NCBI GenBank assembly: GCA_964019135.1
Contig: OZ025258.1
Coordinates: 34,355,202-34,419,201 of the forward strand
DNA length: 64,000 nt
Origin: Arenicola marina
Lineage: Eukaryota; Annelida; Polychaeta; Arenicolidae
Direction: 5' to 3'
This document shows positions 9,501-40,600 of the stretch, one piece after another; positions within the stretch are counted from its first letter, which is position 1, and the number at the start of each line of letters is the position of its first letter. Under the pieces are notes generated by a model. It was given only the letters and a program-made list of their open reading frames with translations. It made no database searches and was not told where the DNA came from. Position numbers and translations under genes: made by a program.

Positions 9501-12500
9501 AGGGTTCGCATTAGTTAAGATATACTGGACGTTGGGGATCTGTCTTTGGTAAGTTGTAATGTGCATTGGTGACTTTGCCTTGTTAAGATGTACTGAACAT
9601 TGGGAAATTTGCTTTGTTATGATGTATTGGACATTGGGGACTTTGCTTTGTTAGGATGTATTGGACATTGGGGACTTTGCTTTGTTAAGATATACTGAAC
9701 ATTGGGAAATTTGCTTTGTTATGATGTATTGGACATTGGGAAAATTGCTTTGTTATGATGTATTGGACATTGGGAATTTTGCTTTGTTATGATGTATTGG
9801 ACATTGGAGAATTTGCTTTGTTATGATATATTGGACATTGGGGACTTTAATTTGTTGAGATGTACAGGGCATTGGGGTATTTGCTTTGTTGCGATGTTCA
9901 GTACATTGGGGACTTTGTTGAGATGTACAGGGCATTGGGAATTTGCTTTTTTATCATGTATTGCATATTAGGGACTCTGCTTTGTAATAATGTTTTGAAC
10001 ATTAGGAACGTTGCAGACTTCGCTTTTGTAAGAAATAATATGCTTGGCGCTGTGATCTTTTGTTATTTCTACAGCGGCATTTCCAGGTGGCTGGGACGGC
10101 TTTTCTGCCGTGTGCTGGGTCTACGGCAAGCTGATGCACCTTGAGCTGGGCTACCCCGTGGGTCTGATCGACACTACGTGGGGTGGCACCCCCGTGGAGG
10201 CCTGGTCCTCACCCGAGGCTCTGGCTGCCTGCGGGCTGCACGGTCAACAGACGTAAGTAAGGCAGTGGAGGCCTGGTCCTCACCCGAGGCACTGGCTGCC
10301 TGCGGGCTGCACGGCCAACAGACGTAAGTAAGGGAGTGGAGGCCTGGTCCTCACCCGAGACACTGGCTGCCTGCGGGCTGCAAGGCCAACAGAAGTAAGT
10401 AAGGCAGTGGAGGCCTGGTCCTCACCCGAGACACTGGCTGCCTGCGGGCTGCACGGTCAACAGACGTAAGTAAGGAAGTGGAGGCCTGGTCCTCACCCGA
10501 GGCTCTGGCTGCCTGCGGGCTGCACGGTCAACAGACGTAAGTAAGGCAGTGGAGGCCTGGTCCTCACCCGAGGCACTGGCTGCCTGCGGGCTGCAAGGCC
10601 AACAGACGTAAGTAAGGCAGTGGAGGCCTGGTCCTCACCCGAGACACTGGCTGCCTGCGGGCTGCACGGCCAACAGGCGTAAGTAAGGAAGTGGAGGCCT
10701 GGTCCTCACCCGAGACACTGGCTGCCTGCGGGCTGCACGGTCAACAGACGTAAGTAAGGCAGTGGAGGCCTGGTCCTCACCCGAGACACTGGCCGTCTGC
10801 GGGCTGCACGGTCAACAGAAGTAAGTAAGGAAGTGGAGGCCTGGTCCTCACCCGAGGCTCTGGCTGCCTGCGGGCTGCACGGTCAACAGAAGTAAGTAAG
10901 GCAGTGGAGGCCTGGTCCTCACCCGAGGCTCTGGCTGCCTGCGGGCTGCACGGTCAACAGAAGTAAGTAAGGAAGTGGAGGCCTGGTCCTCACCCGAGAC
11001 ACTGGCCGTCTGCGGGCTGCACGGTCAACAGACGTAAGTAAGGAAGTGGAGGCCTGGTCCTCACCCGAGGCTCTGGCCGTCTGCGGGCTGCACGGTCAAC
11101 AGACGTAAGTAAGGCAGTGGAGGCCTGGTCCTCACCCGAGGCACTGGCCGTCTGCGGGCTGCACGGTCAACAGGCGTAAGTAAGGCAGTGGAGGCCTGGT
11201 CCTCACCCGAGACACTGGCTGCCTGCGGGCTGCACGGTCAACAGCCGTAAGTAAGGCAATGGAGGCCTGGTCCTCACCCGAGACACTGGCTGCCTGCGGG
11301 CTGCACGGTCAACAGACGTAAGTAAGGCAGTGGAGGCCTGGTCCTCACCCGAGGCTCTGGCTGCCTGCGGGCTGCACGGCCAACAGACGTAAGTAAGGCA
11401 GTGGAGGCCTGGTCCTCACCCGAGACACTGGCTGCCTGCGGGCTGCACGGTCAACAGACGTAAGTAAGGGAGTGGAGGCCTGGTCCTCACCCGAGACACT
11501 GGCTGCCTGCGGGCTGCACGGTCAACAGACGTAAGTAAGGAAGTGGAGGCCTGGTCCTCACCCGAGACACTGGCTGCCTGCGGGCTGCACGGCCAACAGG
11601 CGTAAGTAAGGAAGTGGAGGCCTGGTCCTCACCCGAGACACTGGCTGCCTGCGGGCTGCACGGTCAACAGACGTAAGTAAGGCAGTGGAGGCCTGGTCCT
11701 CACCCGAGACACTGGCTGTCTGCGGGCTGCACGGTCAACAGACGTAAGTAAGGCAGTGGAGGCCTGGTCCTCACCCGAGACACTGGCCGTCTGCGGGCTG
11801 CACGGTCCACAGAAGTAAGTAAGGAAGTGGAGGCCTGGTCCTCACCCGAGGCTCTGGCTGCCTGCGGGCTGCACGGTCAACAGAAGTAAGTAAGGCAGTG
11901 GAGGCCTGGTCCTCACCCGAGACACTGGCCGTCTGCGGGCTGCACGGTCAACAGACGTAAGTAAGGCAGTGGAGGCCTGGTCCTCACCCGAGACACTGGC
12001 TGCCTGCGGGCTGCACGGTCAACAGACGTAAGTAAGGCAGTGGAGGCCTGGTCCTCACCCGAGGCTCTGGCTGCCTGCGGGCTGCACGGTCAACAGAAGT
12101 AAGTAAGGCAGTGGAGGCCTGGTCCTCACCCGAGGCACTGGCTGCCTGCGGGCTGCAAGGCCAACAGACGTAAGTAAGGCAGTGGAGGCCTGGTCCTCAC
12201 CCGAGACACTGGCTGCCTGCGGGCTGCACGGTCAACAGACGTAAGTAAGGCAGTGGAGGCCTGGTCCTCACCCGAGGCTCTGGCTGCCTGCGGGCTGCAC
12301 GGCCAACAGACGTAAGTAAGGCAGTGGAGGCCTGGTCCTCACCCGAGACACTGGCTGCCTGCGGGCTGCACGGTCAACAGACGTAAGTAAGGGAGTGGAG
12401 GCCTGGTCCTCACCCGAGACACTGGCTGCCTGCGGGCTGCACGGTCAACAGACGTAAGTAAGGAAGTGGAGGCCTGGTCCTCACCCGAGACACTGGCTGC

Positions 12501-15500
12501 CTGCGGGCTGCACGGCCAACAGGCGTAAGTAAGGAAGTGGAGGCCTGGTCCTCACCCGAGACACTGGCTGCCTGCGGGCTGCACGGTCAACAGACGTAAG
12601 TAAGGCAGTGGAGGCCTGGTCCTCACCCGAGACACTGGCTGCCTGCGGGCTGCACGGTCAACAGACGTAAGTAAGGCAGTGGAGGCCTGGTCCTCACCCG
12701 AGACACTGGCCGTCTGCGGGCTGCACGGTCAACAGAAGTAAGTAAGGAAGTGGAGGCCTGGTCCTCACCCGAGGCTCTGGCTGCCTGCGGGCTGCACGGT
12801 CAACAGAAGTAAGTAAGGCAGTGGAGGCCTGGTCCTCACCCGAGACACTGGCCGTCTGCGGGCTGCACGGTCAACAGACGTAAGTAAGGCAGTGGAGGCC
12901 TGGTCCTCACCCGAGACACTGGCTGCCTGCGGGCTGCACGGTCAACAGACGTAAGTAAGGCAGTGGAGGCCTGGTCCTCACCCGAGGCTCTGGCTGCCTG
13001 CGGGCTGCACGGTCAACAGAAGTAAGTAAGGCAGTGGAGGCCTGGTCCTCACCCGAAACACTGGCCGTCTGCGGGCTGCACGGTCAACAGACGTAAGTAA
13101 GGCAGTGGAGGCCTGGTCCTCACCCGAGACACTGGCTGCCTGCGGGCTGCACGGTCAACAGACGTAAGTAAGGAAGTGGAGGCCTCGTCCTCACCCGAGA
13201 CACTGGCTGCCTGCGGGCTGCACGGCCAACAGACGTAAGTAAGGCAGTGGAGGCCTGGTCCTCACCCGAGGCACTGGCCGTCTGCGAGCTGCACGGCCAA
13301 CAGACGTAAGTAAGGCAGTGGAGGCCTGGTCCTCACCCGAGACACTGGCTGCCTGCGGGCTGCACGGCCAATAGACGTAAGTAAGGAAGTGGAGGCCTGG
13401 TCCTCACCCGAGGCACTGGCCGTCTGCGAGCTGCACGGCCAACAGACGTAAGTAAGGAAGTGGAGGCCTGGTCCTCACCCGAGACACTGGCTGCCTGCGG
13501 GCTGCACGGTCAACAGACGTAAGTAAGGCAGTGGAGGCCTGGTCCTCACCCGAGACACTGGCTGCCTGCGGGCTGCACGGCCAACAGACGTAAGTAAGGA
13601 AGTGGAGGCCTGGTCCTCACCCGAGGCTCTGGCTGCCTGCGGGCTGCACGGTCAACAGACGTAAGTAAGGAAGTGGAGGCCTGGTCCTCACCCGAGACAC
13701 TGGCTGCCTGCGGGCTGCACGGTCAACAGACGTAGGTAAGGAAGTGGAGGCCTGGTCCTCACCCGAGGCTCTGGCTGCCTGCGGGCTGCACGGTCAACAG
13801 ACGTAAGTAAGGCAGTGGAGGCCTGGTCCTCACCCGAGACACTGGCTGCCTGCGGGCTGCACGGTCAACAGAAGTAAGTAAGGCAGTGGAGGCCTGGTCC
13901 TCACCCGAGACACTGGCTGCCTGCGGGCTGCACGGTCAACAGACGTAAGTAAGGCAGTGGAGGCCTGGTCCTCGCCCGAGACACTGGCTGCCTGCGGGCT
14001 GCAAGGCCAACAGAAGTAAGTAAGGCAGTGGAGGCCTGGTCCTCACCCGAGGCTCTGGCTGCCTGCGGGCTGCAAGGCCAACAGAAGTAAGTAAGGCAGT
14101 GGAGGCCTGGTCCTCGCCCGAGACACTGGCTGCCTGCGGGCTGCAAGGCCAACAGAAGTAAGTAAGGGAGTGGAGGCCTGGTCCTCACCCGAGACACTGG
14201 CTGCCTGCGGGCTGCAAGGCCAACAGACGTAAGTAAGGCAGTGGAGGCCTGGTCCTCACCCGAGACACTGGCTGCCTGCGGGCTGCACGGTCAACAGACG
14301 TAAGTAAGGCAGTGGAGGCCTGGTCCTCGCCCGAGACACTGGCTGCCTGCGGGCTGCAAGGCCAACAGACGTAAGTAAGGCAGTGGAGGCCTGGTCCTCA
14401 CCCGAGGCTCTGGCTGCCTGCGGGCTGCAAGGCCAACAGAAGTAAGTAAGGCAGTGGAGGCCTGGTCCTCACCCGAGACACTGGCTGCCTGCGGGCTGCA
14501 CGGCCAACAGACGTAAGTAAGGCAGTGGAGGCCTGGTCCTCACCCGAGGCACTGGCTGCCTGCGGGCTGCACGGTCAACAGACGTAAGTAAGGAAGTGGA
14601 GGCCTGGTCCTCACCCGAGACACTGGCTGCCTGCGGGCTGCACGGCCAACAGACGTAAGTAAGGAAGTGGAGGCCTGGTCCTCACCCGAGGCTCTGGCTG
14701 CCTGCGGGCTGCACGGTCAACAGACGTAAGTAAGGAAGTGGAGGCCTGGTCCTCACCCGAGACACTGGCTGCCTGCGGGCTGCACGGCCAACAGACGTAA
14801 GTAAGGAAGTGGAGGCCTGGTCCTCACCCGAGACACTGGCTGCCTGCGGGCTGCACGGCCAACAGACGTAAGTAAGGAAGTGGAGGCCTGGTCCTCACCC
14901 GAGGCACTGGCTGCCTGCGGGCTGCACGGTCAACAGACGTAAGTAAGGAAGTGGAGGCCTGGTCCTCACCCGAGACACTGGCTGCCTGCGGGCTGCACGG
15001 CCAACAGACGTAAGTAAGGAAGTGGAGGCCTGGTCCTCACCCGAGGCACTGGTCGTCTGCGGGCTGCACGGTCAACAGTAATGGAGTAGAGGCCACGGCC
15101 TAAGACAGAGTTCATACAGGGGGCATCTTCCATGTTAGAGCTGAGGAAATCTATTACTGTAGTAAAAGTTAGGTGTGAGTAATACGTGAGCTATGCTAAA
15201 ACAATGGTGCGCCCTTACTTATACGAATTATACGGATTATCTTTTTTTTTTCATTGTTTTTATTTTAAGATGGGACACCTACGTGCCACCGCCGCGGGAA
15301 TACTGGAGCGAGCACGAGGCGAACATGGGTGAGATGTACCACCGGCTGGCGTTCCCGCATGGAGACAACCCGACCCCGCCGCGCACCAACTCCGTGCTGT
15401 GGAACGCCATGATTCACCCATTCCTTAACATGACCATCAAGGGCGCCATCTGGTATCAAGGTAACCAACTACCACAGCCATTCCTGGATATTTAATGCTG

Positions 15501-18500
15501 GTGTGGAATGAATTGAAATAAAGTGGTGTTTTAGGCTGCTTTTGTGGGCACAAGTGCTAAACTGGGTCTTAAATGGTGAAACTATTACTTCAACCGACAA
15601 AATATGTATAACGGTCCCGGCCGTTTCGAACTTACGGGCCAAGCTCAGTCTGCTTACGAACTGAGCTAGGGTGCCTCGCCCGCACTGTGATCATGCATTG
15701 TGACATAGAACCACTCTGAAATTATCACATACGTTCATATATATACGGGTCAAGAAAGTATCAATTTACGAAGTAATACCGGTTCCAATGTAAGCACCTA
15801 TGCATTGGCCTAAGTGGCTGTGCGGGTAAACTGACTCTGCAATGTTAAGGTGGGGACCCCGTTGCTGCATGCCCCTACCCACAAGATTTATAAACCATAT
15901 GTGTCCTGTGTATAACCTCAGTGGGACGTTGTAATGGACATAGTTTCAATGAAACGTTGTTTGCACAGTATGTAGCCTAAATGGAACGTTTATTTCAATA
16001 AACATGCGTTACCATTTGAGAGTTTGTGTTTTAGGTGAAGCCAATGCCGGTTACCACGTGGACCTGTACAAGTGTACCTTCGAGTCGATGGTCAGCGACT
16101 GGCGAAGCCACTTCCACCGAGGCACCGAGGGGCGTAACGAGAAGCTATTCCCCTTCGGCTTCGTCCAGGTACATACGTCAACCTTTATATCCTGTATCAT
16201 GTCCTGCCTTCGTCCAGGTACATACGTCAACCTTTATATCATGTATCATGTCCTGGCTTCGTCCAGGTACATACGTCAACCTTTATATCCTGTATCATGT
16301 CCTGGCTTCGTCAAGGTACATACGTCAACCTTTATATCCTGTATCATGTCCTGGTTTCGTCCAGGTACATACGTCAACCTTTATATCCTGTATCATGTCC
16401 TGGCTTCGTCCAGGTACATACGTCAACCTTTATATCCTGTATCATGTCCTGGCTTCGTCCAGGTACATACGTCAACTTTGATATCCTGTATCATGTCCTG
16501 GCTTCGTCCAGGTACATACGTCAACCTTTATATCATGTATCGTGTCCTGGCTTCGTCCAGGTACATACGTCAACTTTGATATCCTGTATCATGTCCTGGC
16601 TTCGTCCAGGTACATACGTCAACCTTTATATCATGTATCGTGTCCTGGCTTCGTCCAGGTACATACGTCAACTTTGATATCCTGTATCATGTCCTGGCTT
16701 CGTCCAGGTACATACGTCAACCTTTATATCCTGTATCATGTCCTGGCTTCGTCCAGGTACATACGTCAACCTTTATATCCTGTATCATGTCCTGGCTTCG
16801 TCCAGGTACATACGTCAACTTTGATATCCTGTATCATGTCCTGGCTTCGTCCAGGTACATACGTCAACCTTTATATCCTGTATCATGTCCTGGCTTCGTC
16901 CAGGTACATACGTCAACCTTTATATCATGTATCATATCCTGGCTTCGTCCAGGTACATACGTCAACCTTTATATCCTGTATCATGTCCTGCCTTCGTCCA
17001 GGTACATACGTCAACCTTTATATCCTGTATCATGTCCTGGCTTCGTCCAGGTACATACGTCAACCTTTATATCATGTATCATATCCTGGCTTCGTCCAGG
17101 TACATACGTCAACCTTTATATCCTGTATCATGTCCTGGCTTCGTCCAGGTACATACGTCAACCTTTATATCCTGTATCATGTCCTGGCTTCGTCCAGGTA
17201 CATACGTCAACCGTTATATCCTGTATCATGTCCTGGCTTCGTCCAGGTACATACGTCAACCTTTATATCCTGTATCATGTCCTGGCTTCGTCCAGGTACA
17301 TACGTCAACCTTTATATCCTGTATCATGTCCTGGGACAGATCACACAATGCCGTTGTACGAAATATCCCGGAACCGGGGTCCTGAGAAAGTGTTCGGAAC
17401 AATGTCTTCAGCTCCGATAATGACAGCGTGGGATAGAGCGTCTAACCGACTAACAGACTTCCCGGGACAGTTGAATTTCAGGGTCGGACGGCCTGTGTGC
17501 CCGGCGGGGCAGGTGAAGATTTAGACTGCGATCTCTCGCTATTCAGCAATGTTCAGCAGCTACACTGAACAAACAACATGCAGGCACTGATCAATGCGAA
17601 CAATAACTGCATGGTATATTTCTTGGCCCCGACAATATGACATCGGAAAACTGTACCCTTAATCATAGGCCGTTCGCTTTTCGGAACATGACTTTGGAGA
17701 ATGGTCTTAGTGTGTATTAGTTGCTTCTCAACTTGATAGGACAGGTACATTTTCAGGGGGGCAGGTCGACCTCAATACTACATGCCCAACAGGACAGGCG
17801 ACATCCAAAGTTAACTCATGTCTGTCGGTGCGAGTGGCCCCTCATGGTGTTGTCTCTGGACGATATGGCTTGTGATGTCATGTATATGTCCACGCTGGCA
17901 GTCCTTTATATAACGGCAAGATGTTTGAGTTGGAGGTGCCGCGCTGCATGACACAGCTATTACCTGTGGTTCTAGATTGGTCCTAACAAGCCCGGAAACG
18001 TGACACGGGGGTATCCGGATGTGCGCTGGCACCAGAGCGGCGACTCGGTGTCCGGACCAACGATCCCGAACTCCTTCATGGCAGTCTCCATTGATCTCAC
18101 TGACCCGGATTCCCCTTACGGACGGTCAGTGACGTCACGAGATCACGAACCCTATGTAATATAATAACAGGCAGTTTGTAGTTTGATATCGCTAAAGTCT
18201 TTACACCACCAAGGGATCGGTGACGTGTATGCGAGCACTGTGACATGTCGAGCGCTGTGACACATGCTCTGTTATTAACCTGTTTATGTCTGCCCCAGGG
18301 TTCACTATCGCGATAAGCTGACGGCCGCTGAGAGGCTGGCTAGCGCTGGCCTCATTAAGGTCTTTAAGCGTGGCCAAGATACGTCCCTGTATCCAACGAA
18401 GGAAGTGCTTAACACCAAGGATAAGACACTTAGCATCCAGTTCCAGCACGGCCAGTACGACATCAACGTGCGCAACGTGTTGGGCTATGAGGTATGTATA

Positions 18501-19637
18501 ACGAGATAGATCTTTTTGAATCTTCACGTATCGAGACCACTTGCCACAGAAACCGGTTAATTTATAGAGGATATATCGGGAATTGTGAATCTTTAATATA
18601 TGCGCTTTGAACTAAACTTAAAGTCAAATCTGATGCATGTATTTATATATATATATATAGGGAGGGTCATTTATTGGGCAGTGTCGCCATATTGTCAGGG
18701 AGATGCGGTGTTCAAACTCACAACAAAAGGCTGGCTGTACGCACTGAAAATATCAAGGTGTGTCGCCCGCTAGCCGTTTGTGTTATGCGGATCATTATGT
18801 GGACTGCCTGGTTCCCTGTGAATCATGCATGTCATTATGTGGACTGGCTGGTTCCCTGTGAATCATGCTTGTCGTTTTTTGGACTGGCTGGTTTCCTGTG
18901 AATCATGCATGTCATGTGGACTGGCTGGTTCTGGTTCCCTGCGAATCATGCATGTCATTCTTTGGACTGGCTGATTCTCTGTGAATCATGCATGTCATTA
19001 TGTGGACTGGCTGGATCCCTGTGCATCATGCATGTCATTATGTTGACTGGCTGGTTCCCTGTGAATCCTACATGTCATGTGGACTGGCTGGTTCCCTGCG
19101 AATCATGCATGTCATTATGTGGACTGGCTGGTTCCCTATGAATCATGCATCTCATTATGTGGACTGGCTGGTTCCCTGTGAATCATTCAGGTCAGTATGT
19201 GGACTGGCTGGTTTCCTGTGAATCATGTAGTTCAGTATGTGGACTGACTGGTTTCCTGTGAATCATACTGGTCAGTATGTGAACTGGCTGGGTGATGGTA
19301 TCTTTGTGAATTTCTTATAATATTATAATAGTCGCTAAATTATCATTATAATTATTATTATCCAACCTAGGTTTGCTGCGCCGCGACCCCCGCTCTCTGC
19401 CCGCTAGGTGGCCTCGAAGGATGGCTGTCCGCACCCATCGTCAGCAATAACAACACGTGGATTACGTTGTCATGGAAATCGTGCGGGGAGAAGGCGCCGC
19501 TGGGGTACCGGTATGAGTGGCGTGAGTCCCCCTGTCCCTACCTCCGCTGTGCTGTCTACAGCGACTGGAACCAGCACCCACTGCCCCCCATGGTTCAGAT
19601 GTTCAAACCGGATCAGCTGACGGCAGGCAACGAATAG
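417..19637 (+). CDS. SIAE: Sialate O-acetylesterase, complete ten-exon gene
   Basis: Exons: 417-507, 1135-1335, 2251-2426, 8583-8721, 10075-10252, 15270-15460, 16035-16168, 17976-18124, 18299-18491, 19371-19637. Every junction is GT-AG, all phases agree, and the sum is 1,719 nt (572 residues plus TAG). The protein aligns along its whole length with vertebrate SIAE (human 523 residues as I recall it): an N-terminal signal peptide, then the SGNH/GDSL-type esterase fold. Visible landmarks are FGDVWICSGQSNMQ with the nucleophile Ser148, WGGTPVEAWSS, VLWNAMIHPF, WYQGEAN, RWHQ and the catalytic-type His422 in VHYRDK; human Ser127 and His377 correspond. Sequons at NVT, NMT, NVT and NNT fit a glycosylated lysosomal or secreted enzyme. 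The family removes O-acetyl groups from sialic acids. Introns 3, 4, 5, 7 and 9 are swollen by minisatellites; those of introns 5 and 7 start inside the preceding exon. No close AATAAA follows the stop, so the 3' UTR end is unknown. Identity is certain by homology; activity is inferred. Confidence 0.95.
1135..1335 (+). CDS. SIAE: SIAE exon 2
   Basis: Acceptor tttttttag|AGCAC, donor GAAAG|GTGAGT. Encodes the family N-terminal block FASYFASHMVLQQ followed by IWGYAP and a beta-rich stretch with sequon NVT (residues 31-97), the first conserved segment of SIAE proteins. Confidence 0.93.
2251..2426 (+). CDS. SIAE: SIAE exon 3 (catalytic serine block)
   Basis: Acceptor gcgtcaccag|GG, donor GGACAG|GTGAGC. 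Encodes WSVKLNPRP and FGDVWICSGQSNMQF; Ser148 of GQSNM is the SGNH nucleophile. Ends in phase 0. A GTG at 2271 is an internal codon, not a start. Confidence 0.95.
2783..8330. repeat. 36/27-bp minisatellite in SIAE intron 3
   Basis: About 5.5 kb of head-to-tail units with core GAAGGGGTTCCACCCTCT. Two main unit lengths alternate: 36 bp (with CTAGGGCTGCTTGG) and 27 bp (the same unit lacking 9 bp). Rarer variants add G residues (GGGGG) or carry CATCCCTTCT. Most lengths are multiples of three, so long artificial frames stay open on both strands. A block at 4395-4661 recurs with the same translation at 5923-6189 (offset 1,528 bp), so multi-unit segmental duplication has occurred. The array touches neither exon 3 nor exon 4, unlike the arrays in introns 5 and 7. 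Confidence 0.97.
8583..8721 (+). CDS. SIAE: SIAE exon 4
   Basis: Acceptor caacgccag|ATG, donor ACAA|GTGAGT. Encodes residues 157-202, ending in YNWRKPTT, which aligns with the human segment LQWSKPTSEN. The exon begins with a Met codon, but this is internal. Ends phase 1. Confidence 0.92.
8985..9195. repeat. Interspersed repeat copy A (SIAE intron 4)
   Basis: Shares patchy but collinear similarity with 20560-20755: a TTCTACTCATT block, CATAGTTCACCGTGT, and a downstream pyrimidine-rich TTTTCTACTTTCGC stretch occur in the same order at both sites. Two diverged copies of one dispersed element; the family is not recognised and no coding potential was seen. Confidence 0.45.
9528..10012. repeat. 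About 34-bp minisatellite in SIAE intron 4
   Basis: Some fourteen diverged units with core TTTGCTTTGTTATGATGTAT followed by TGGACATTGGG. Ends about 60 bp before exon 5 and contains no exon sequence. Confidence 0.9.
10075..10252 (+). CDS. SIAE: SIAE exon 5
   Basis: Acceptor tttctacag|CGG, donor CAGAC|GTAAGT (phase 2). Encodes FSAVCWVYGKLMHLELGYP and WGGTPVEAWSSPEAL, the strongly conserved central segment of the esterase. Its last 59 bp, together with the first 12 bp of the intron, form the repeat unit of the adjoining 71-bp array. The first copy of the donor is the one that keeps the frame. Confidence 0.95.
10194..15078 (+). repeat. 71-bp splice-donor-spanning minisatellite (SIAE exon 5/intron 5)
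   Basis: About 69 units of 71 bp. Each holds a copy of the exon 5 end (from GTGGAGGCCTGGTCC to CAACAGAC) followed by GTAAGTAAGG, a near-ideal 5' splice site. The first unit is the real exon end; all others lie in the intron. Units differ at a few sites (GCTCTGG/ACACTGG, CTGCC/CCGTC, ACGG/AAGG, CAGAC/CAGAA). Blocks recur at offsets of 13 units (about 11355 and 12278). The last unit (CAACAGTAATGG) has lost the donor. 71 is not a multiple of three, and TAA follows directly in frame, so any downstream donor or retention would truncate SIAE after GLHGQQT. Confidence 0.97.
15270..15460 (+). CDS. SIAE: SIAE exon 6
   Basis: Acceptor ttttattttaag|A, donor CAAG|GTAACC (phase 1). Encodes WDTYVPPPREYW through VLWNAMIHPFLNMTIKGAIW to WYQ. 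VLWNAMIHP and WYQG are family signatures, and NMT is a sequon shared with human SIAE. Confidence 0.95.
15528..15690 (-). mobile_element. tRNA-derived SINE (family 1) in SIAE intron 6
   Basis: Read on the - strand, the head GGGCGAGGCACCCTAGCTCA is tRNA-like, with an A-box-like TAGCTCAGTTCGTAAGC and a degenerate B box AGTTCGAAAC. The tail, CACAAAAGCAGCCTAAAACA, matches that of the copy at 32533-32706. Antisense to SIAE. Confidence 0.7.
16035..16168 (+). CDS. SIAE: SIAE exon 7
   Basis: Acceptor gtgttttag|GTGAA, donor TTCGTCCAG|GTACAT (phase 0). Encodes GEANAGYHVDLYKCTF through FPFGFVQ, aligning with the human block from GESN to FPFGLVQ. The last 12 bp seed the 49-bp array that fills the start of intron 7. 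Confidence 0.95.
16157..17334 (+). repeat. 49-bp splice-donor-spanning minisatellite (SIAE exon 7/intron 7)
   Basis: About 24 units. Each ends in GGCTTCGTCCAG, the real 3' end of exon 7, and is followed by GTACATACGTCAACC, the start of intron 7, so each repeats the exon-intron border. Variants: CTTTATATCC/CTTTGATATCC/CTTTATATCATG and one TCAAG|GTACAT. The unit is 49 bp (3n+1) and almost free of stops in all three forward frames. Donors three and six units downstream (16315 and 16462) would therefore restore the exon frame with 49 or 98 extra codons. Confidence 0.96.
17976..18124 (+). CDS. SIAE: SIAE exon 8
   Basis: Acceptor gtggttctag|ATT, donor GGACG|GTCAGT (phase 2). Encodes NVTRGYPDVRWHQSGDS and NSFMAVSIDLTDPDSPYG, aligning with human IRWHQTAD and NTFMAVAMDLCDRDSPFG. 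Confidence 0.94.
18299..18491 (+). CDS. SIAE: SIAE exon 9 (catalytic histidine block)
   Basis: Acceptor ctgccccag|GG, donor TATGAG|GTATGT. Starts with VHYRDKLTAAERLA; His422 aligns with human His377 of IHPRDK, the SGNH catalytic histidine. The remainder is the beta-rich C-terminal part, more diverged from vertebrates. Confidence 0.94.
18790..19290. repeat. About 40-bp minisatellite in SIAE intron 9
   Basis: Roughly twelve units with core TGTGGACTGGCTGGTTCCCT followed by GTGAATCATGCATGTCATTA; several units are shortened. Purely intronic. Confidence 0.92.
19371..19637 (+). CDS. SIAE: SIAE exon 10 (C-terminus, stop TAG)
   Basis: Acceptor tccaacctag|GTT. Encodes VCCAATPALC, sequon NNTW, ITLSWKSCG, RYEWRESPCPYLRCAVY and PLPPMVQMF before TAG. 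This matches the Cys-rich human end (ISCCSDHRC, RYAWTTWPCEYKQCPLY, LPAPPFIAF). Confidence 0.94.
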   Translation, partial: VCCAATPALCPLGGLEGWLSAPIVSNNNTWITLSWKSCGEKAPLGYRYEWRESPCPYLRCAVYSDWNQHPLPPMVQMFKPDQLTAGNE

Positions 19638-19854
19638 GACGCTCGTGATATATTTCGATAATTGCTAAGCTATAAAGATGATTTTTTACATGCATAGTTT
19701 TGCATTATTGGTGGGTACCACGTGTCTTTATTGGCAATCACTGAGAAGGTTTTTTTTGTAACAATTACAGTACATGTATTTCTATTAATGAACAGTAAGG
19801 AGATGTACTCCGCCCTTCGCGTAATCTATGCAACAACCGTGAGAGAGGCACCAG

Positions 19855-19990
19855 CAGATGGCGGGTTCAATCCCAACCCGAGGGGGCCGCCGTGGTCGAG
19901 AGATAGCGCTCTCCACTGCAGGCCAACAGGTTGCGGGTTCAATCCCCTCCCGAGGGGGTCACCGTGGTCGAGAGGTAGCACTCTTTGTCC
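19855..19990 (+). mobile_element. Tandem tRNA-like SINE heads
   Basis: Two adjoining copies of a tRNA-like segment: CGTGGTCGAGAGATAGCG (A-box-like) and GGGTTCAATCCCCTCCCGAG (B-box-like), then CGTGGTCGAGAGGTAGC again. A preceding GGGTTCAATCCCAACCCGAG belongs to a third, partial copy. No complete acceptor stem could be paired, so these are read as SINE-type remnants rather than tRNA genes. Confidence 0.5.
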
Positions 19991-20559
19991 CATGGTTATT
20001 TAGTGTTAGACCAGGTGTGCGCGAAAAGGGCATAGTACACCAATCATCCAGGGACATTTCGCTTTACATAGAGATCTTGATATGTGTGATGGTTTGGCTC
20101 CCTCTGAGCTACTTTTACAATGTTGATTCGCTGCTATTTTAACCTATTTTAATGAAGTGTTTGGTCGTAATTCTTATATCAGTACCAATGATGTTTGCGA
20201 TTTAGTGTGAGAGTGTTAGTGTCACATATGGATTAACTCTTAGATCGGGTCCAATTTCTGTTGTTGTTAACTTGTGATAATACTAATATTTTAGAAGAAC
20301 AAATATTTAGCCAGCTGTCCGGTACCTACTAACTGTGATATAGTCAAATCACGTGGCTTTGTCACATAATTAGGGTGATAGTTATACTGACATATCTCAT
20401 TTGCAGTAAAAATATATATCATAAGGTTGCTGATTTGATGTGTGAAAATAACGGTTTTAATTTAATTTCATATATTTTATATTGTAAGATATACATTGTA
20501 TTTACCGTCTTAGCGGTAGGTCATAATAGGGATAATAAACGTTTCCATGGTTGTATGGG

Positions 20560-25104: not shown

Positions 25105-25530
25105 TGACCGGTGACGTCCCAATTACTCGTGGCCGGTGTGACGTCACCACTCGTGGCCGGTGTGACGTCACCACTCGTGGCCGGTGTGACGTCGCAATTT
25201 GTCACGGGCGATGACGTCACAGTTCCTCACAGCCGGTGTGCCGTAACAGGTCCTTTAGGCCGGTGTGACGCCACAATATATTCCTCATTCGGTGACAGTC
25301 ACAATTCCTCGCGGCCGGGGTGACGTAACAGGTCCTCGTGGCCGGTGTGAGGTCACAATTCCTCATTCGGTGACGTCACAATTCCTCGCGGCCGGTTTGA
25401 GGTCACAATTCCTTGCAGCCATTGTGACGTGACAACTCCTCCTGGCCCGTCTGACGTCACAATTCCTCGTGGTCGGTGTGACGTCACAATTCCTCGGGGT
25501 CGGTGTGACGTCACAATTCCTCGTGAGACG
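25105..25530 (-). repeat. Stop-codon-spanning minisatellite with repeated TGACGTCA (B3GLCT 3' end)
   Basis: About fifteen diverged units of roughly 27 bp. On the + strand the core is GGCCGGTGTGACGTCACAAT followed by TCCTCG. The unit nearest the gene is the end of the coding sequence itself: read on the - strand, CGAGGAATTGTGACGTCACA includes Glu-Glu-Leu-stop. Seven units carry a perfect TGACGTCA, the CRE palindrome bound by CREB/ATF proteins; others differ by one base. Confidence 0.92.
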
Positions 25531-28600: not shown

Positions 28601-31600
28601 CGACTGACCTGGTGGAAGAGTGCACTGTGGGTGATGGGTAGCGATACATGACTGACCTGGTGGAAGAGTGCACTGTGGGTGATGGGTAGCGATACACGAC
28701 TGACCTGGTGGAAGAGTGCACTGTGGGTGATGGGTAGCGATACATGACTGACCTGGTGGAAGAGTGCACTGTGGGTGATGGGTAGCGATACATGACTGAC
28801 CTGGTGGAAGAGTGCACTGTGGGTGATGGGCAGCGATACACGACTGACCTGGTGGAAGAGTGCACTATGGGTGATGGGTAGCGATACACGACTGACCTGG
28901 TGGAAGAGTGCACTGTGGGTGATGGGTAGCGATAACCGACTGACCTGGTGGAAGAGTGCACTGTGGGTGATGGGTAGCGATACATGACTGACCTGGTGGA
29001 AGAGTGCACTGTGGGTGATGGGTAGCGATAACCGACTGACCTGGTGGAAGAGTGCACTATGGGTGATGGGTAGCGATACATGACTGACCTGGTGGAAGAG
29101 TGCACTGTGGGTGATGGGTAGCGATACACGACTGACCTGGTGGAAGAGTGCACTGTGGGTGATGGGTAGCGATACACGACTGACCTGGTGGAAGAGTGCA
29201 CTGTGGGTGATGGGTAGCGATAACAGACTGACCTGGTGGAAGAGTGCACTATGGGTGATGGGTAGCGATACACGACTGACCTGGTGGAAGAGTGCACTGT
29301 GGGTGATGGGTAGCGATAACAGACTGACCTGGTGGAAGAGTGCACTGTGGATGATGGGTAGCGATAACCGACTGACCTGGTGGAAGAGTGCACTATGGGT
29401 GATGGGTAGCGATAACCGACTGACCTGGTGGAAGAGTGCACTATGGGTGATGGGTAGCGATACACGACTGACCTGGTGGAAGAGTGCACTGTGGGTGATG
29501 GGTAGCGATACATGACTGACCTGGTGGAAGAGTGCACTGTGGGTAATGGGTAGCGATAACCGACTGACCTGGTGGAAGAGTGCACTATGGGTGATGGGTA
29601 GCGATAACCGACTGACCTGGTGGAAGAGTGCACTATGGGTGATGGGTAGCGATACACGACTGACCTGGTGGAAGAGTGCACTGTGGGTGATGGGTAGCGA
29701 TACATGACTGACCTGGTGGAAGAGTGCACTGTGGGTGATGGGTAGCGATAACAGACTGACCTGGTGGAAGAGTGCACTGTGGGTGATGGGTAGCGATAAC
29801 CGACTGACCTGGTGGAAGAGTGCACTATGGGTGATGGGTAGCGATAACAGACTGACCTGGTGGAAGAGTGCACTATGGGTGATGGGTAGCGATACACGAC
29901 TGACCTGGTGGAAGAGTGCACTGTGGGTGATGGGTAGCGATAACAGACTGACCTGGTGGAAGAGTGCACTATGGGTGATGGGTAGCGATACACGACTGAC
30001 CTGGTGGAAGAGTGCACTGTGGGTGATGGGTAGCGATAACAGACTGACCTGGTGGAAGAGTGGACTATGGGTGATGGGTAGCGATACATGACTGACCTGG
30101 TGGAAGAGTGGACTGTGGGTGATGGGTAGCGATAACAGACTGACCTGGTGGAAGAGTGCACTGTGGGTGATGGGTAGCGATACATGACTGACCTGGTGGA
30201 AGAGTGGACTATGGGTGATGGGTAGCGATACAGGACTGACCTGGTGGAAGAGTGGACTGTGGGTGATGGGTAGCGATAACAGACTGACCTGGTGGAAGAG
30301 TGCACTGTGGGTGATGGGTAGCGATACATGACTGACCTGGTGGAAGAGTGCACTGTGGGTGATGGGTAGCGATAACAGACTGACCTGGTGGAAGAGTGCA
30401 CTGTGGGTGATGGGTAGCGATACACGACTGACCTGGTGGAAGAGTGCACTGTGGGTGATGGGTAGCGATACACGACTGACCTGGTGGAAGAGTGCACTGT
30501 GGGTGACGGGTAGCGATACATGACTGACCTGGTGGAAGAGTGGACTGTGGGTGATGGGTAGCGATACACGACTGACCTGGTGGAATAGTGCACTATGGGT
30601 GATGGGTAGCGATACATGCCTGACCTGGTGGAAGAGTGCACTGTGGGTGATGGGTAGCGATAACCGACTGACCTGGTGGAAGAGTGCACTATGAGTGATG
30701 GGTAGCGATACATGACTGACCTGGTGGAAGAGTGCACTATGGGTGATGGGTAGCGATAACAGACTGACCTGGTGGAAGAGTGCACTGTGGGTGACGGGTA
30801 GCGATACACGACTGACCTGGTGGAAGAGTGCACTGTGGGTGATGGGTAGCGATACATGACTGACCTGGTGGAAGAGTGCACTGTGGGTGATGGGTAGCGA
30901 TACATGACTGACCTGGTGGAAGAGTGCACTGTGGGTGATGGGTAGCGATACATGACTGACCTGGTGGAAGAGTGCACTGTGGATGATGGGTAGCGATACA
31001 TGACTGACCTGGTGGAAGAGTGCACTGTGGGTGATGGGTAGCGATAACCGACTGACCTGGTGGAAGAGTGCACTGTGGGTGATGGGTAGCGATACATGAC
31101 TGACCTGGTGGAAGAGTGCACTGTGGGTGATGGGTAGCGATACATGACTGACCTGGTGGAAGAGTGCACTGTGGGTGATGGGTAGCGATAACCGACTGAC
31201 CTGGTGGAAGAGTGCACTGTGGGTGATGGGTAGCGATACATGACTGACCTGGTGGAAGAGTGCACTGTGGGTGATGGGTAGCGATACATGACTGACCTGG
31301 TGGAAGAGTGCACTGTGGGTGATGGGTAGCGATACATGACTACCTGGTGGAAGAGTGCACTGTGGGTGATGGGTAGCGATAACCGACTGACCTGGTGGAA
31401 GAGTGCACTGTGGGTGATGGGTAGCGATAACCGACTGACCTGATGGAAGAGTGCACTGTGGGTGATGGGTAGGGATACATGACTGACCTGGTGGAAGAGT
31501 GCACTGTGGGTGATGGGTAGCGATACATGACTGACCTGGTGGAATAGTGCACTATGGGTGATGGGTAGCGATACACGACTGACCTGGTGGAAGAGTGCAC

Positions 31601-34600
31601 TGTGGGTGATGGGTACCGATACATGACTGACCTGGTGGAAGAGTGCACTATGGGTGATGGGTAGCGATACACGACTGACCTGGTGGAAGAGTGCACTGTG
31701 GGTGATGGGTAGCGATACATGACTGACCTGGTGGAAGAGTGCACTATGGGTGATGGGTAGCGATACATGACTGACCTGGTGGAAGAGTGGACTGTGGGTG
31801 ATGGGTAGCGACAGACGCTTCAGACACATCCCCAAGGTCATGTCATCAGGGGAGTCCGGCTTCGCGCACTGACACAGGTGGCTGTCAATCAGCATTTGGA
31901 CGGCTGTGTGACTCAGCACAATTCTGAGCGATAATAAGGGAATGCGTTATTCAAACCGCGTTTTGTCACACAATGAATTACAAGGTGAAAGAAAAAGACA
32001 AAATACAACAGTAAATGCGAAAAAAAAAGTTGCAATTAACGATGATAGATTTACTTGATATGATACTAAGGAGGTCAGAGTTCGTACACATAATGTACAC
32101 ACATAATTATAACCAACGACGAGGATACGCATACCGTAGTCACACGAACAAGCGCCCGGGAGGTTATTTTTGTCGAGTGAACAATTCCCCGGGAACTTAT
32201 TCAAATAGAGGCGCTACCCACCCCTCCCCCCTCCCGAACAGTGACCCCCCCGTCGTACAGTCCATACTCACTCCCCGCCCCCGGTGATGCATTCGTAGCC
32301 CCCTCCCCCCCCCCCCCCACCTGAAGGCGGTAGCCACCCCTCCCCCCTCCTGACCAGTGACCCCTCCCCCCCGTCGTACAGTCCATACTCACCCCCCACC
32401 CCCCGTGATGTAGTCGTAGCCCCCCCACTGGAGGCGGTGCCCGAAGCCGTAGCGTTCCCCGAGGGCAACTGGCTCGACAGGGTCGTAACAGGCCAGTAGT
32501 CTGCGCAGGCGCGGAATGCTGAAACAAATCAATTGGTGTTTTAGGCCGCTTTTGTGCACATAAGGCCTAAACCGGGCCAATAAACCTTCCGGGTGATGAA
32601 GGATAAAACATGACCGGATTCGGCGTCCGGGCCCGGATTCGAACCCAGGACCTATTGATCTGCGGTCTAGTTTGCTAACCACAACACCAGGCCCCGTGTT
32701 AAAGCGGGTGTCCAACCGAATCTAATCGCGACCTGCACCGAAAGGTTACATCTTAAAATTAATTTGGCGAGTGTTAACGCTTCGTTTCGGCTGACTGGTG
32801 AGGAGAAACAAATGAAGCCAACCGGCCCCCATCAAAGTCGAGCAGCGCGCCATTTTGCCGGAGCAAGTGACGTATTTTGTGAAATTTTATGTGGCGCCAC
32901 CTTACGTTAGAACTGGAAGTTATCTCGCGGAGGGAACTCATCACATAGCAGGTAACCTTCAGGAACAACGCGTGAAACGAGAGATCAGGGCCGCGATTTA
33001 AGGATGAATTGCTGCAGTTCTAACCCGCGCAGTATACCATGATCTTAGTGTTTCATGGAAAAATATCATCAAAACATATTGATCTTTCTCTTGCAACTCT
33101 TTCTCTTTGTCTGCGTAAAAAAGCCATGATTGGAGTTAGAATCGCAGCAATTTATATTTGCGATGACCGAAATAAATTTTATTGTGAGCTACAGACAGGA
33201 CGGAAAATTCTGTAATGATATGATTATAATTATAATAGATTATAACACTTGATTATATGAATCGGTAAAGCAGCGTTAGAGGCCAGGCTGGCGGCTTCCT
33301 TTAACTAATAGCCCTAAACTTAGAGGTCCTAGATGGGAGACTGCCTACCTGATCAGTGTATCGTCATCCACAATTACTAGCCAGTTTTTAGCCTTGATGT
33401 GTGGCTGGGTGTGAGCTCTATGCAGAATGGCGAGAGTCTTGGCGCAGTGACCTGTGACACCAACATATTATATTAGTACCCTATTAACAGGCACTTCTGT
33501 TTCTGTCCACAACATAAACTTATAATGATTCAGCTACTTCTATAGAAGGTCTTGGTCCCACCTGTTTTTCAATAATCATGAATCATGATTTGTTCAAGTT
33601 TATGGACTAACACATTAAATTGTTCCATTTATACAAAATTAGGCAGAAATCTGATCCCAGTTGTGAAGAAGCTAGCTTCCCTGGCGTCATGTGGCCATTA
33701 CCACATCAATAACATTACTTCAATCGTAGCAGAGGTGTTGCACGTATTGTCAGAATGCTGGAGGAGCATCACTTCGTTGCATTTCCTTTCATTGTCGAAT
33801 TCCGCCTATGATAGAGTACAATGCCGCCAAACCGTAGCCGTACACCGTCACCCATGCGTGAGGGGTGTATTTCGTACGCATGGGTGGGTCCCTGCATCAG
33901 ATAGTGTCTACGACATTCGGAACCGAAATGAAGATCCCTAAAACGTTCGGATGTTCCGGTCATTATTTGCCACAGGTTAAGATCAATAATTGAGACGCGC
34001 CGAACCAAAGCGATATCTAATTACCAGTGTCGGTGTTTGGGATGCCGAAGCTGATGGTGGGGATGACGTCATCGACGGTGTCGCTGTAGATCTCCACGTG
34101 CTTGGCGTCCGTGAGCCACGTGGTCTGTACCACGGGGACTACAGCCCAGAGACGCACGGGTAAAACCGAATGCTCTCTAATACGTTACCATAGTTACGTC
34201 TTACCAAACAAGCCTCTTAGACAATAATAACACAAAATAAAACAAATTGTTACAAAAACAATTGAGTTCGGTCAGTTCAATTGTTGTTTAATAATGCCTC
34301 TCGAATTATTGGTATTTCTCACTAATATCGATGTCGAAGAAAAACCATTAACACCAGGAAAGTTATTCAGCATCTGAAGAAATTGCCTTTGCAATAGCGT
34401 TTCTCCTGTCTGATCGAACTTACTTCTATCCGTGTGAAATTTCGTGCAGGTCTTCACAGCAATAAATACATCGTCTTCCGGAATTGGTTTCCCCTGCAAT
34501 AAAATCACATCTATTCATAGCAATGACAAATCACTTTAACAATACCTCTCAACTGAATATCACTAACACCGGCTTGTTTTATCCCGGAACGAATGTTATT

Positions 34601-37600
34601 GCATAACGACCTCATTTATTCAATAAGAACAACAGTTAAGTAAAGCGAAATTAAGGCTCTTTAAAAAATAAATAAAGGCAACTTTCAGACGAAGTTTTGT
34701 AATTCAAGTCATTCGCGGAAGTCGTTAAAATTACTCGATATTGGTGCTAATTTTTCATTACGATATGAGGCACTTTGATGAGTTCTGGATTGGGTGAAGA
34801 ATTTTCTATGAACATCCTTACACATTGTGGGAACTTAACCCGGTACGAAGTCGCGCAGGTTTCCGATTCACCGGTGGTGCAGAGAAAGGGAGCTTCTGTG
34901 AGACTCAAACCCTCCCCTTTGTTGTAGATAAACTGCGCTAACTGAAAGAGAATCCAAATCTTATTTCTTCAGCAACTACTCAATGAAACTTTGCTCTTTT
35001 ATGCAACGTGCTGTACACATGAAGGCTACACTGTACAATGAAATGAAACAATTTTCGAACAGATCTGTGATCGAGTGTACTACCACTGTACAATAAACAT
35101 TGGTTAGATGGGAGATGGAAGCAGATCCACATGCCGGGGCGAACCCACGACCTGTTGATCTGCAGGTCAGCCAGCTTACTCGCCGCGCGGAGGAGGCTAT
35201 CCCTAGCTCGTACTGTAAATACTGATGTCCGATGACCAGGCCGCTAACCTTACCTCGTGCTTGGCATCAATGGTGAAGTCAGCATCGTTGGACGGAGTCT
35301 GCAGCCGCGTCCCCAAACTTATCAGATCGCATTGAAAACAGAATCACAACATGGTAGGGTGGGTATAGATGTATATGAAAACAAGGCAATTTCGTCAAGA
35401 ACCATACTTGCAATAACTTCAAGCGGCTCAGACAGTAACTTCCACCTGTATAATACTTTCACGATGATGGGTTGTTTTAGACCATCTTTGCGCACACATT
35501 GCCATTCGGGAACGCTACCTCTCGATCGGCGTGGTTCTAGCATTGGACTTTGCAAGATGCCAATCATGAGCAATAAGTGAGCTTGTCTGAAACAGGTCAC
35601 AACCACAATGGATGATAAACTGAAAGCTTGACGCCCGATGGAAAGCCCCAGCAAAAACAGATACAAATTTCTCATCCAAACAAGCGTAGATCACAAAATC
35701 CACTTTTAGAAACTGAATTTGAGATCATATGTAATTCATATGCAAAATACACACCGACATTTCCTTATATCCTATAATCACACTAGAAATCATGTTTCTT
35801 TTTCGTGAATCCCACGAAACTCCGTTTGCAAAGCGTATCCTATCTATCAACAACGCACTGGGTGTTACTTGTTTCAAACACTATCGCAACATTGCTGCGT
35901 ATCATATCCTTTCAGTATCCATAATTTGAACGATTGTATCATATTCCACATTCAAATGACCATTATCGTCTGTATAATGACACATAATCCATGCGAAGTA
36001 GCCTACGCGCCTTGATGCAAAACACGACTTCATTCTTGAAATCTGATAGCGAAATCAACTGACTTGTGGCTGCAGCGTCCGACATTCTTCCATGTCAGGG
36101 GAAACCACTGTTTCAGCTTAGCTCACGTATGACTCAAGTTTACCATTGCTACAACAATACATTTCGTGGGTTCTCAGACAGAATATAGGAACCGACTTCA
36201 GTCAGCTATTTTATTGGTTTCGATTGGCTTTTATTGGAAGCGAGAGATGCAATGTACATCTTAAAAGAACTCTTATTCACGCTACATGGACCAGGTGAGG
36301 CTCACCGACCGTACTTTAAGTCAGAGAATACCCGTGTAACAGTTCATTCTTGAAAAGATATGTACTCGGCTTGCGCCTCGTAATTCTTTTCCAAGAATGT
36401 ACTGTTACATGGGCATTCTCCTTACCGTAATAAAATCCAATCGTACATAATAAAAAGCACATCAGTATACATGGAAAGTAGCAACATCTACAGATAAAGC
36501 ATGTGTACTTTTTCCGGCCAAAGCCGTTCGTGGCATCTTCCAGAAATAAATCTGTTTGCGCCATTTGGCTCGATACTGACCTTCGCAGGAGTGGCATAGA
36601 AACCAAGAAGCCGGCAGCGAAATCCGGATAGGCGAAGCTTGCTGGGTCCTCGTGGTAGGCGAAGTGGTGAATAATAGTGGCTTCCCGGTCTCTGAGGACC
36701 TTGCCGAGGAACAGCTCCTGCAACCACGTGCGCCAAGCGACGTCGGACATATAGTGTAGGTGGCTGTACAGTGCATAGAGCTATTCAGGACCACAGCGAA
36801 TATTCAGTAACACTGATATGATCCTGAAATACACGTACCTTATGTCTGAACTCCACATATTGGTACATGTAACAATGAATAACCCATGGAACCACAACTA
36901 AACAAGTTCAATTAAGTAGCGATGCGTGTTTTATATTTCTCTCCTCATATCCCCTATTTATGCAAAGTATCAAGTTGTCTTGTACGACTAATTTAATTGC
37001 GATTAAGTAATAAATGTTGTAATACCTGAGAATAGTTGAGCTTGCCCAGTTCTGTTGTGAGTTTGTCTACATTTATGGTTGTTTCGTCTTCACAGAAAAA
37101 CACACCAGCCTTCGTAGGGAACTTCTTCAGTATGCTTAAAGTAAATACTAAAACATAAATACATTGATTGCTAAGGGTTATTTAAAAAGATTAATGCACA
37201 GATCATTATAGGAGTTTTTACTTTCATTCGTTTACACTGGGTACCATCTTAAACTTTAAGTAAAGCTTTTATACTGACTTATAAAGATAAAGATTATTGT
37301 CCCCCATGTAACAACCCTTATTTCAAACATGACATCTACTTGAAAAAACACAGATACATACTTCTTTCTGCATCACAAAGATAGGAAATGTTGCGGTTCT
37401 AGACCGCTCTTGTGAACGTGAAGGCTACAGTGCGCCAAGACACCTCACGGGACAATGAAATGGTCTGGGTGAAAGTTGTCTTTGACGCAGGTGTCAGGGT
37501 TCGAACCCAAGACGTTTTGATCTGCAGCATTGTCTACTTACAAACTGAGTCAGGGCGGCTCCCTGAATCATACAGTGCACGTGTACCGAGGTACATATAT

Positions 37601-40600
37601 AATTTAGTACACTAAGGCCACAGCAAATACCACGGTATGATGAAAGTACACATGTACCTACTCCGGTCTGATGAAAGTTCACATGTACTTACTCCAGTAT
37701 GATGAAAGTACACATGTACTTACTCCGGTCTGATGAAAGTACACATGTTTTTACTCAGGTCTGATGAAAGTACACATGTTTTTACTCAGGTCTGATGATA
37801 GTACACATGTACTTACTCCGGTCTGATGAATTTGAACATGTACTTACTCTGGTCTGATGAAAGTACACATGCACTTACTCAGGTCTGATGAATTTGCACA
37901 TGTACTTACTCCGGCACAATGGGCAGAATGCTCCAAGCTCCCACTTGAGACCAGCGCTCATGAAGCTGGTGATAATCTGGTGGTTTCTGGTTTCAGAAAA
38001 AGAGATTACGGGTAAGAATGATATATTTACCAAGGGCGACGCGTTGTGGTATAATTTAGCGTGTATCGATCGGTACTATACTAAAAAATGTGAGAATAAA
38101 ATATATTTGTATATATACTAAAACAAGCCAGTCCACGACCATTGGGCCTGCATGAATTTCTCCTTTCTTTCGAATCAGCAACTACTTTTGTATTTAGGTC
38201 CTTACATGGACCCAGACAAAATGTAACTGATCAATATCTTCATAATCTTTGTCAATTATTGTAACTTTATTAATCATTATATATGATTTTATATTGTCAA
38301 ATGTACCACTGTCACAGACCTTTCCGCTGTCTCTGATCTGATCCATGAATTCCTTCTTCCTCATGCCTGCCCGCATAGCATGGTAAATGTTTCCCTGTGT
38401 CAGCACTACAAACACCACATCGCTGAGCTATGAAACAACAAGGCGGCTTTATTCCCGAGTAACAAAGGCATGCATATAATTACTTAATTAATTGTACATA
38501 AAATTACCTTTAGTTTCTTATAAAATGATATACATGCATGACAAATTCGCCTGATCACGACCATTTTTTTCTCAGCTCTAAATTGATCATATCATCAACA
38601 TAATCTATTGGAACCTATGAGTAACATATGTAAGATACATCTATCTTTACATAGAGATAACACGCTATATTTATAACTTATACACAAGCTGAGATGATTT
38701 CTCTCTTTGTATAATGGCTAACAATATATGGTTCTCTGAACCTAGTTGATCTCAACTGGTTGCTAGACATTACATGCCAAGATGAATCTAGACTTAATAA
38801 TTATATCGTATTTAAAGCCATTTTAACAGATACATAGAAAAAATGTCAGTGATAATTTAATAAAAAATTTGGTGTAGTACATCTACAGCAAAGGATAGAC
38901 AAACCACCTACCAAATTGTTGATCATCAATTGGTTGAAAGAGCTCTGCATTATTGACAGTGACATAGCCCCCTGCAACAAATGATAATAATGTCATTATA
39001 ATAGTTATACAATGCCAGTTAGAAAATGAATATTCATCAACATGGAATGCATATGTAAGACCTGCTTGTTAAGCCTAATGACATATAACCTATGAGAGTG
39101 GTAGAGGTGCACAGTATTCATATTTAACCTAGTTAATACCTATCAACTAGTAGTCCTGTGAGCAGACTTCTCTGGGAGATTGCACTGCAGCAATGACTCA
39201 AATTATTGGGGAAGATAATGATACATCCTTGGAATTACTCAACTAATAATTCCGTGGTCTGTATTGGTAACACCCTGCATGTAGTTGTGGATGAAGCTTA
39301 AGGGTAGATGTACTTGCAGAAACATACTTTCATTACTTTATTCATATGCAACAAGGTCTGGACTTTTACCAGACAGATGTCTTAGTGTACGACAGCTACC
39401 TGGGTGTTCATTTTGTAAGATTCTAAATGATCTACATATCATTTGTATGAACTTTTACATGATATGCAATCGATGATAGCTACGAAATAAGATGTATAGA
39501 CAGTTTGGCCAAACCAACAACCTGGCTGTATGAGTTTTGGTGGGTGGGGTGCCTGAGAGAAGGGTGTGTAGGGAGGATGGCAGTCAGCTGAAGTCGGAGT
39601 CAGGGGATCGGGAGAAAGATAAAAGGCTATTGTGTCACTTGAAAACTTTGTAACTAATGTCAAGCCAGCAGATTCCCAGGGAATGCTTGTTGCCACAGCT
39701 CTAATTAGCTACCAGAGCTTTATTAAGCTGCCCTGATAAGTCCTAACCCCATGACCTCCGCATGTAATTGAAATGAATCAAAAATCCCTTCCTATCTGTG
39801 ATGTCTGATGAGAAATAAGATACCTACACATCCTCCCTCCAGGTATTAAATACACACTATAACAACTGCAGAATAGGATGTAACTAACTGGATATACAAA
39901 TTACAATGGTCCCTACATTATGCAGTCCCTCCCCATCATCCTGTCTTTTTGCTATACTAGTCGCCTAACGCTGTTTCCGCTGCTTTGATGACAGTTTGAG
40001 CATTGCTACCAGTATGACTATGGGCTTGCCACAGATATTTGATATGGCGTTGAATTTGGTGATAAGGCATTGGGACCATGAGCGCTGGACTCCTTCATAT
40101 ATTCGAGGACCCCAGCCGCCATTCAATACCTAATATATTATGGTATATACCATAATATATTCAAGGACCCAGCCACCATACAATACTTAATATATTCAGT
40201 ATATACATAATATATTTAATACCCTGCCCGCTCTACAATACCTGATATATTATGGTATATACCTAATATATTAAGTATTGTATGGCGGGCTGGGTCCTCG
40301 AATATATTATGGAGTCGAGCACTCATGGTTGGGACTAATGACTACTATTATTAGTATTGGCATCTAGCCAGGTATTGGTGACTGCAGAAAAAGCAATAAG
40401 CACCCAGCGACAATGTTGACACAGTTAATATATTTAAGGCGGCTACTTGTACCAATGTGCTGGTGCATCCTCACTTGCATCGTGTGCATAGCCATATAGG
40501 TGGGACAGACAGACGGACAGCTTCATTTTATTAGCCTAGTAAGCTAATACATATGCTTGTACTTGTCTTACCAGGCCAGCCTCTAAGCAGCATGTGTGCC

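Follow-up and report, generated by a model that had tools for sequence, protein, structure and literature searches.

Tandem arrays spanning the 3' ends of coding exons in two adjacent genes of the annelid Arenicola marina

Background

Why should tandem arrays be found at the 3' ends of coding exons, at donors and even at a stop codon, and not at acceptors or starts? This question is raised by a 64,000-nucleotide stretch of the Arenicola marina genome (GCA_964019135.1, contig OZ025258.1, positions 34,355,202 to 34,419,201 of the forward strand; hereafter the window), in which two adjacent genes, SIAE and B3GLCT, carry arrays whose repeat unit takes in the end of a coding exon together with the beginning of the intron or 3' flank that follows. 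We consider it probable that these arrays are minisatellites of the 'mirage' type, that is, tandem duplications which formed locally across the 3' ends of exons, have been amplified within the array and are tolerated as the first donor or stop codon is the one used.

Results and discussion

Local repeats span exon 3' ends but not exon 5' ends

All 46 exon borders of the two genes were scanned with 120-nt probes for local repeats that span the border. Such repeats were present at 6 of the 21 donors and at one of the two stop codons, together 7/23 exon 3' ends, whereas none was detected at the 22 acceptors or the single start (0/23 exon 5' ends). Donors and acceptors thus differ in this respect (one-sided Fisher test, P = 0.0089; 0.021 without SIAE exon 1), but the absence from acceptors alone is not significant, with about one crossing or fewer expected there. 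All statistics reported here come from one window, chosen by a reader who had already seen the pattern, and the P values are to that extent flattering.

Tandem Repeats Finder (TRF) yielded 37 rows at a score of at least 50, which were merged by hand to 22 loci. Six of these loci cross an exon 3' end (five donors and one stop codon); no locus crosses an exon 5' end, and none lies wholly inside an exon. At a score of at least 30 (72 rows) the identical six borders were crossed, again with no 5' end among them, and one row of 8 bp x 2 (16115-16130) appeared inside SIAE exon 7. A first-pass annotation made from the letters had described six arrays at exon 3' ends, each containing the last 5-59 exon bases and none built on an acceptor. 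TRF recovers all six, and by its limits the arrays take in the last 59 and 12 exon bases at SIAE exons 5 and 7, 13 at the B3GLCT stop codon, and 36, 32 and 5 at B3GLCT exons 13, 12 and 4, respectively; the probe scan likewise leaves the acceptors free. However, the annotation had overlooked a seventh case, an old duplication at the donor of SIAE exon 1 (E = 2.6e-7 in the border-probe scan), and its donor pattern holds for the five TRF arrays at donors but not for the stop-codon array, which is not at a donor. The unit spans an exon-intron border, as in a mirage, in these five arrays and in the old donor duplication, and the stop array belongs to the class only in a wider sense. Features and coordinates are listed in Table 1.

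Table 1. Border-crossing arrays in SIAE and B3GLCT and the exons that seed the longest of them
Feature	Position in window	Strand	Description
SIAE exon 1 donor pair	470..612, exon end 507	+	Old two-copy duplication, 92-bp spacing, 80% over 51 nt (-38 to +12)
SIAE exon 5	10075..10252	+	71-bp unit seeded by the final 59 nt (gene model, copy segmentation)
SIAE exon 5 array	10194-15078	+	71 bp x 68.8 (TRF); unit of 59 exon + 12 intron nt; 69 copies by segmentation
SIAE exon 7	16035..16168	+	49-bp unit seeded by the final 12 nt (gene model, copy segmentation)
SIAE exon 7 array	16157-17334	+	49 bp x 24.0 (TRF); unit of 12 exon + 37 intron nt; 24 copies by segmentation
B3GLCT exon 4 array	37633-37914, exon 37910-37986	-	31 bp x 9.1 (TRF); unit of 5 exon + 26 intron nt; 9 copies by segmentation
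B3GLCT exon 12 array	32209-32424, exon 32393-32518	-	Unit of ~112-121 bp (TRF 121 bp x 1.8), two copies across the donor
B3GLCT exon 13	31776..31923	-	48-bp unit seeded by the final 35-36 nt (gene model, copy segmentation)
B3GLCT exon 13 array	26013-31811	-	48 bp x 120.8 (TRF); unit of 35 exon + 13 intron nt; 121 copies by segmentation
B3GLCT stop array	25111-25523, stop 25511-25513 (HEEL*)	-	27 bp x 15.7 (TRF); unit of 13 exon nt (exon 14, with the stop) + 14 nt of 3' flank

The exon borders rest on hand-built gene models with consensus splice sites. SIAE, with 10 exons (417-19637) on the + strand, encodes an uninterrupted protein of 572 aa that matches Pfam SASA (8.3e-11). B3GLCT lies on the - strand (13 exons, 38971-25511) and gives an uninterrupted 451 aa that begin in exon 2 and end with HEEL-stop. 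Its first exon was not located; the exons are called 2-14, following the numbering of the first-pass annotation. The B3GLCT product matches Pfam Fringe (1.6e-65) and PDB 12em, a beta-1,3-glucosyltransferase (E = 6.5e-143), to which it aligns across the ends of exons 4, 12 and 13. The join of exons 8 and 9 is the least certain of the model because the alignment has a 6-residue gap near it.

For two arrays the amount of exon in the unit or the copy number depends on the method. About 32 exon bases of B3GLCT exon 12 are included by TRF and BLAST limits and 40 in the working unit used for segmentation. The stop array runs into the 3' flank and is more diverged (71% matches); its segmentation halted after 3 copies, and the TRF figure is used instead. 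This array also holds 7 of the window's 13 exact copies of the palindrome TGACGTCA, which we take to be CRE-like.

The excess at exon 3' ends exceeds random placement

To obtain a random expectation, each unit was placed at random on the array-collapsed sequence and the crossings of the 23 exon 3' ends were counted. Over the whole window 0.87 crossings are expected and 6 are observed (P(>=6) = 1.4e-4); for the 11 merged loci that lie within the two genes the expectation is 0.88 (P = 6.0e-5). Within the window, the excess at donors over acceptors and over random placement that the first-pass annotation had led us to look for is accordingly present.

A possible though doubtful alternative is pure survivorship: in a genome rich in minisatellites, duplications would occur evenly throughout, purging would remove those that fall in exons or across acceptors, those at donors and stops would stay, and no seeding bias would exist. 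The window is indeed rich in such DNA: tandem arrays (the 22 merged loci) make up 59% of it, and 16 of the 22 loci, all intronic or intergenic, cross no exon 3' end. Within SIAE and B3GLCT, 5 of the 11 loci are not exon-seeded, among them the longest SIAE locus (2800-8315), and such loci contribute 6733 of the 19506 bp of array DNA in the two genes (35%); with this share, and from a single window, the first-pass view of the exon-end arrays as a general mode of intron growth finds no support. The lack of acceptor crossings is also consistent with survivorship, as are the five unanchored intron arrays, which stop 21-268 bp from the acceptor, none crossing it. However, with exon interiors closed to placement, so that units may fall only in introns or across a border, the expectation is still 0.90 crossings of exon 3' ends against the 6 observed (P = 7.8e-5), and survival alone is therefore insufficient. 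The proposal of the first-pass annotation that only copies leaving the first exon end intact survive thus explains donors versus acceptors, but not this excess. A probe test on collapsed sequence, with two units kept per array, points the same way: a local repeat was present at 5/23 exon 3' ends, 0/23 5' ends, 60/1802 intron-interior, 148/2600 intergenic and 0/128 exon-interior positions, in a window picked for its pattern and at sampled positions that, being 5 bp apart, are not independent. The two 3' ends lost in this test, B3GLCT exon 4 and the stop, are those with the shortest units.

Copy structure suggests separate local events

Identity among copies ranges from 71-80% (stop array and SIAE exon 1) to 95-96% (SIAE exons 5 and 7, B3GLCT exon 13), and from this wide range seeding seems to have been recurrent. 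The seven mirage-border probes found no unit match more than 6.5 kb away on the same strand in the window searched. Since the units also differ in length and sequence, the arrays look like separate local events, in agreement with the independence claimed in the first-pass annotation. No element is shared among scattered sites, as would be the case for introner-like sequences, on the same strand within the window. Runs of copies that recur within an array were longer than in any of 100 shuffles for B3GLCT exon 13 (9 copies against a maximum of 6) and SIAE exon 5 (5 against 4), but within the shuffles for SIAE exon 7 (3 against 5); the repeated runs point to block duplication inside the exon 13 and exon 5 arrays.

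The functional copy of B3GLCT exon 13 keeps CCA (Pro) and encodes THSPLFHQ like PDB 12em, and the array has G for C at -15 (Ala) in 113 of 118 full-length copies. This exon-base variant was considered as a record of seed order and rejected, the copies that have the exon base (1, 27, 33, 34, 36 and 37 of 119 full-length) showing no gradient from the exon.

The GT dinucleotide is retained in 216/216 full-length non-functional copies of four donor arrays, a count that leaves out three odd-length copies (one of exon 5, two of exon 13) as well as exon 12 and exon 1. Moreover, no stop interrupts the coding frame through the exon 13 array, over 1970 codons counted from the start of exon 13. Both properties would be expected if the arrays were kept for use, as spare donors, as U1 binding sites guarding a long intron, or for a regulated longer protein read through the open exon 13 array, but we find this very unlikely. 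Only 9-17 columns vary per unit, and GT conservation is therefore expected under homogenisation; column-wise, selection on the repeated donors was rejected as a candidate (P = 0.58, 0.66, 0.44 and 0.37, all not significant). The idea that the exon 13 array is coding was likewise rejected: a 48-bp unit without a stop accounts for its open frame, and another frame is open for 1846 codons. In SIAE exon 5, reading beyond the first donor meets TAA immediately, and a later donor would truncate the protein; together with the intact protein this implies that the first donor is used. The stop-codon array, finally, has no donor at its border.

That the repeats were inflated or invented by the assembler is highly improbable: arrays of 1-9 kb are difficult to assemble, one globin mirage seems to have been misassembled in the B. 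floridae draft (PMC3087553) and PGBD5 repeat numbers vary between two assemblies (2 versus 7 and 3 versus 6; PMC3902484), but seven borders in two genes are affected here, the copies form a mosaic of variants (37/69 distinct units in SIAE exon 5, 29/121 in B3GLCT exon 13 and 9/24 in SIAE exon 7), and the PGBD5 repeats were upheld on re-examined Sanger and new Illumina data (PMC3902484).

A proposed route from duplication to tolerated array

According to the explanation we favour, a short tandem duplication (27-121 bp) would first form on the spot, spanning the 3' border of a coding exon, possibly through slippage or an end-joining error. The array would then grow and homogenise by exchange and by block duplication inside it, with the exon copy held by selection. 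As splicing and translation run 5' to 3', the donor or stop used would be the first one that follows the intact exon, and later copies would end up in the intron or 3' flank. The array would be harmless, and invisible to the protein, because this first signal is taken. A duplicated acceptor or start would instead place the wrong copy first. This first-signal argument may account for the contrast of donors and stops with acceptors and starts, and the excess over intron interiors would need a local seeding bias, or else the luck of this window.

Several points weigh against this explanation. The use of the first donor is deduced from protein conservation, and divergence is a poor clock where arrays homogenise. 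The 6 mirage donors resemble the 15 other donors in donor score, GC, skew, hairpin energy, CpG and exon length (all P > 0.1); with no correlate in these properties, R-loops or base composition were rejected as a cause, and no cause of biased seeding was found. The array edges, read by eye, share 2 nt (GG) at SIAE exon 7, 3 nt (CCG) at B3GLCT exon 4 and 6 nt (CGCCTC) at exon 12, which speaks for the explanation, but sharing of 2-3 nt is what chance would give. The exon 13 array breaks off partway through a unit, so that its junction must have either undergone a deletion at a later time or received additional filler bases, and at SIAE exon 5, SIAE exon 1 and the stop array the edges have decayed beyond reading. 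Moreover, an acceptor mirage, BflGb6, has been published (PMC3087553).

More tentatively, and with the odds rather against it, a polarity rule may be suggested for this lineage. Tandem duplications would start with preference where coding segments end (donors, stops) and be kept mainly at signals where the first one wins (donor, stop), seldom where the last one is needed (acceptor, start), and such arrays would then be a main source of intron lengthening.

Other features of the window

The remaining part of the window holds further repeats. An 8.8-kb array (45766-54575, 26 bp x 339) is flanked by inverted repeats (45143-45478 and 54705-55058; ~350 nt, 88% identity), and looks like a minisatellite carried in a foldback or terminal-inverted-repeat element. 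A second large array (55514-62883, 46 bp x 161) has open frames of 2488, 2508 and 1955 codons on the + strand, and no adjoining gene was recognised. We considered these two largest arrays as mirages of unseen genes and rejected the idea, as no exon was recognisable by eye in the frames beside the second and to the right of the first, a reading made by eye and not by Pfam search, with the left side of the first read as DNA only. An imperfect palindrome of ~575 bp (42758-43328) is 80% self-complementary. It is followed by another stretch of this kind (43336-43489, 78% self-complementary), inside which an exact direct repeat of 38 bp occupies 43388-43464.

Similar interspersed stretches with tRNA-like box motifs were seen by eye at 15530-15750, 32540-32700, 35100-35180 and 37390-37560, and perhaps represent a family of short interspersed elements. 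ARAGORN, run with the bacterial code, found no tRNA, and an Rfam scan gave no matches. Near the right edge of the window, 63479-63560 could be the first exon of a gene for a secreted protein (MRTASILLAFVAVAVLVTTATRREASG, followed by GT).

Comparison with known systems

In the accounts available to us, published mirages have been described separately for individual genes or gene families, and the present count of exon 3' ends against 5' ends, stop codon included, makes a bias that can be counted out of what had been anecdotal. If this bias were true genome-wide, it would separate the start sites of duplication from survival, and exons with dozens of identical competing donors would offer a natural test of how the spliceosome chooses the first donor. 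The donor-and-stop bias is therefore the part worth pursuing and worth a genome-wide test; among the matches listed in the open-licence literature, no title announces a genome-wide mirage survey.

The phenomenon itself is already known from amphioxus, and the likeness to amphioxus mirages proposed in the first-pass annotation agrees with the published descriptions. In Adh3, BflGb6, BflGb9, TnC and PGBD5, as in the present arrays, the unit spans an exon-intron border and splice signals recur in many copies (PMC3087553, PMC3902484). The Adh3 mirages have units of 10-72 bp; the BflGb6 mirage joins an intron end to an exon start in units of 150-160 bp (6 units in one haplotype, 3 in another), and that of BflGb9 lies at the 3' boundary of exon 2 (PMC3087553). 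The present units of 27-121 bp fall inside the overall published span of 10 to about 160 bp. Length polymorphism and somatic instability are also counted among the traits of mirages. The same account calls the mechanism unclear, proposes mirages as a source of new introns, and reports Adh3 data and globin RT-PCR that suggest undisturbed regular splicing (PMC3087553).

Internal tandem repeats of human duplicated genes (PMC2812944) are likewise expanding minisatellites at exon-intron borders. However, they average 30 bp x 4, belong to recent primate paralogues and are associated with novel introns or alternative transcripts, and the present arrays are far larger. Intron gain by tandem duplication also duplicates across an intron-exon border, but creates a new intron, whereas here existing introns seem to be lengthened. 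The part of PMC2632668 available to us gives no border-spanning repeats, and the mirage descriptions in PMC3087553 and PMC3902484, as far as they go, include no stop-codon mirage. Unlike the amphioxus mirages described there, the present case comprises up to ~121 copies, six donors and a stop in two adjacent genes, and no acceptor; as far as these two sources go, what is new in this window is the density, the copy numbers of ~69 and ~121, and the stop-codon version.

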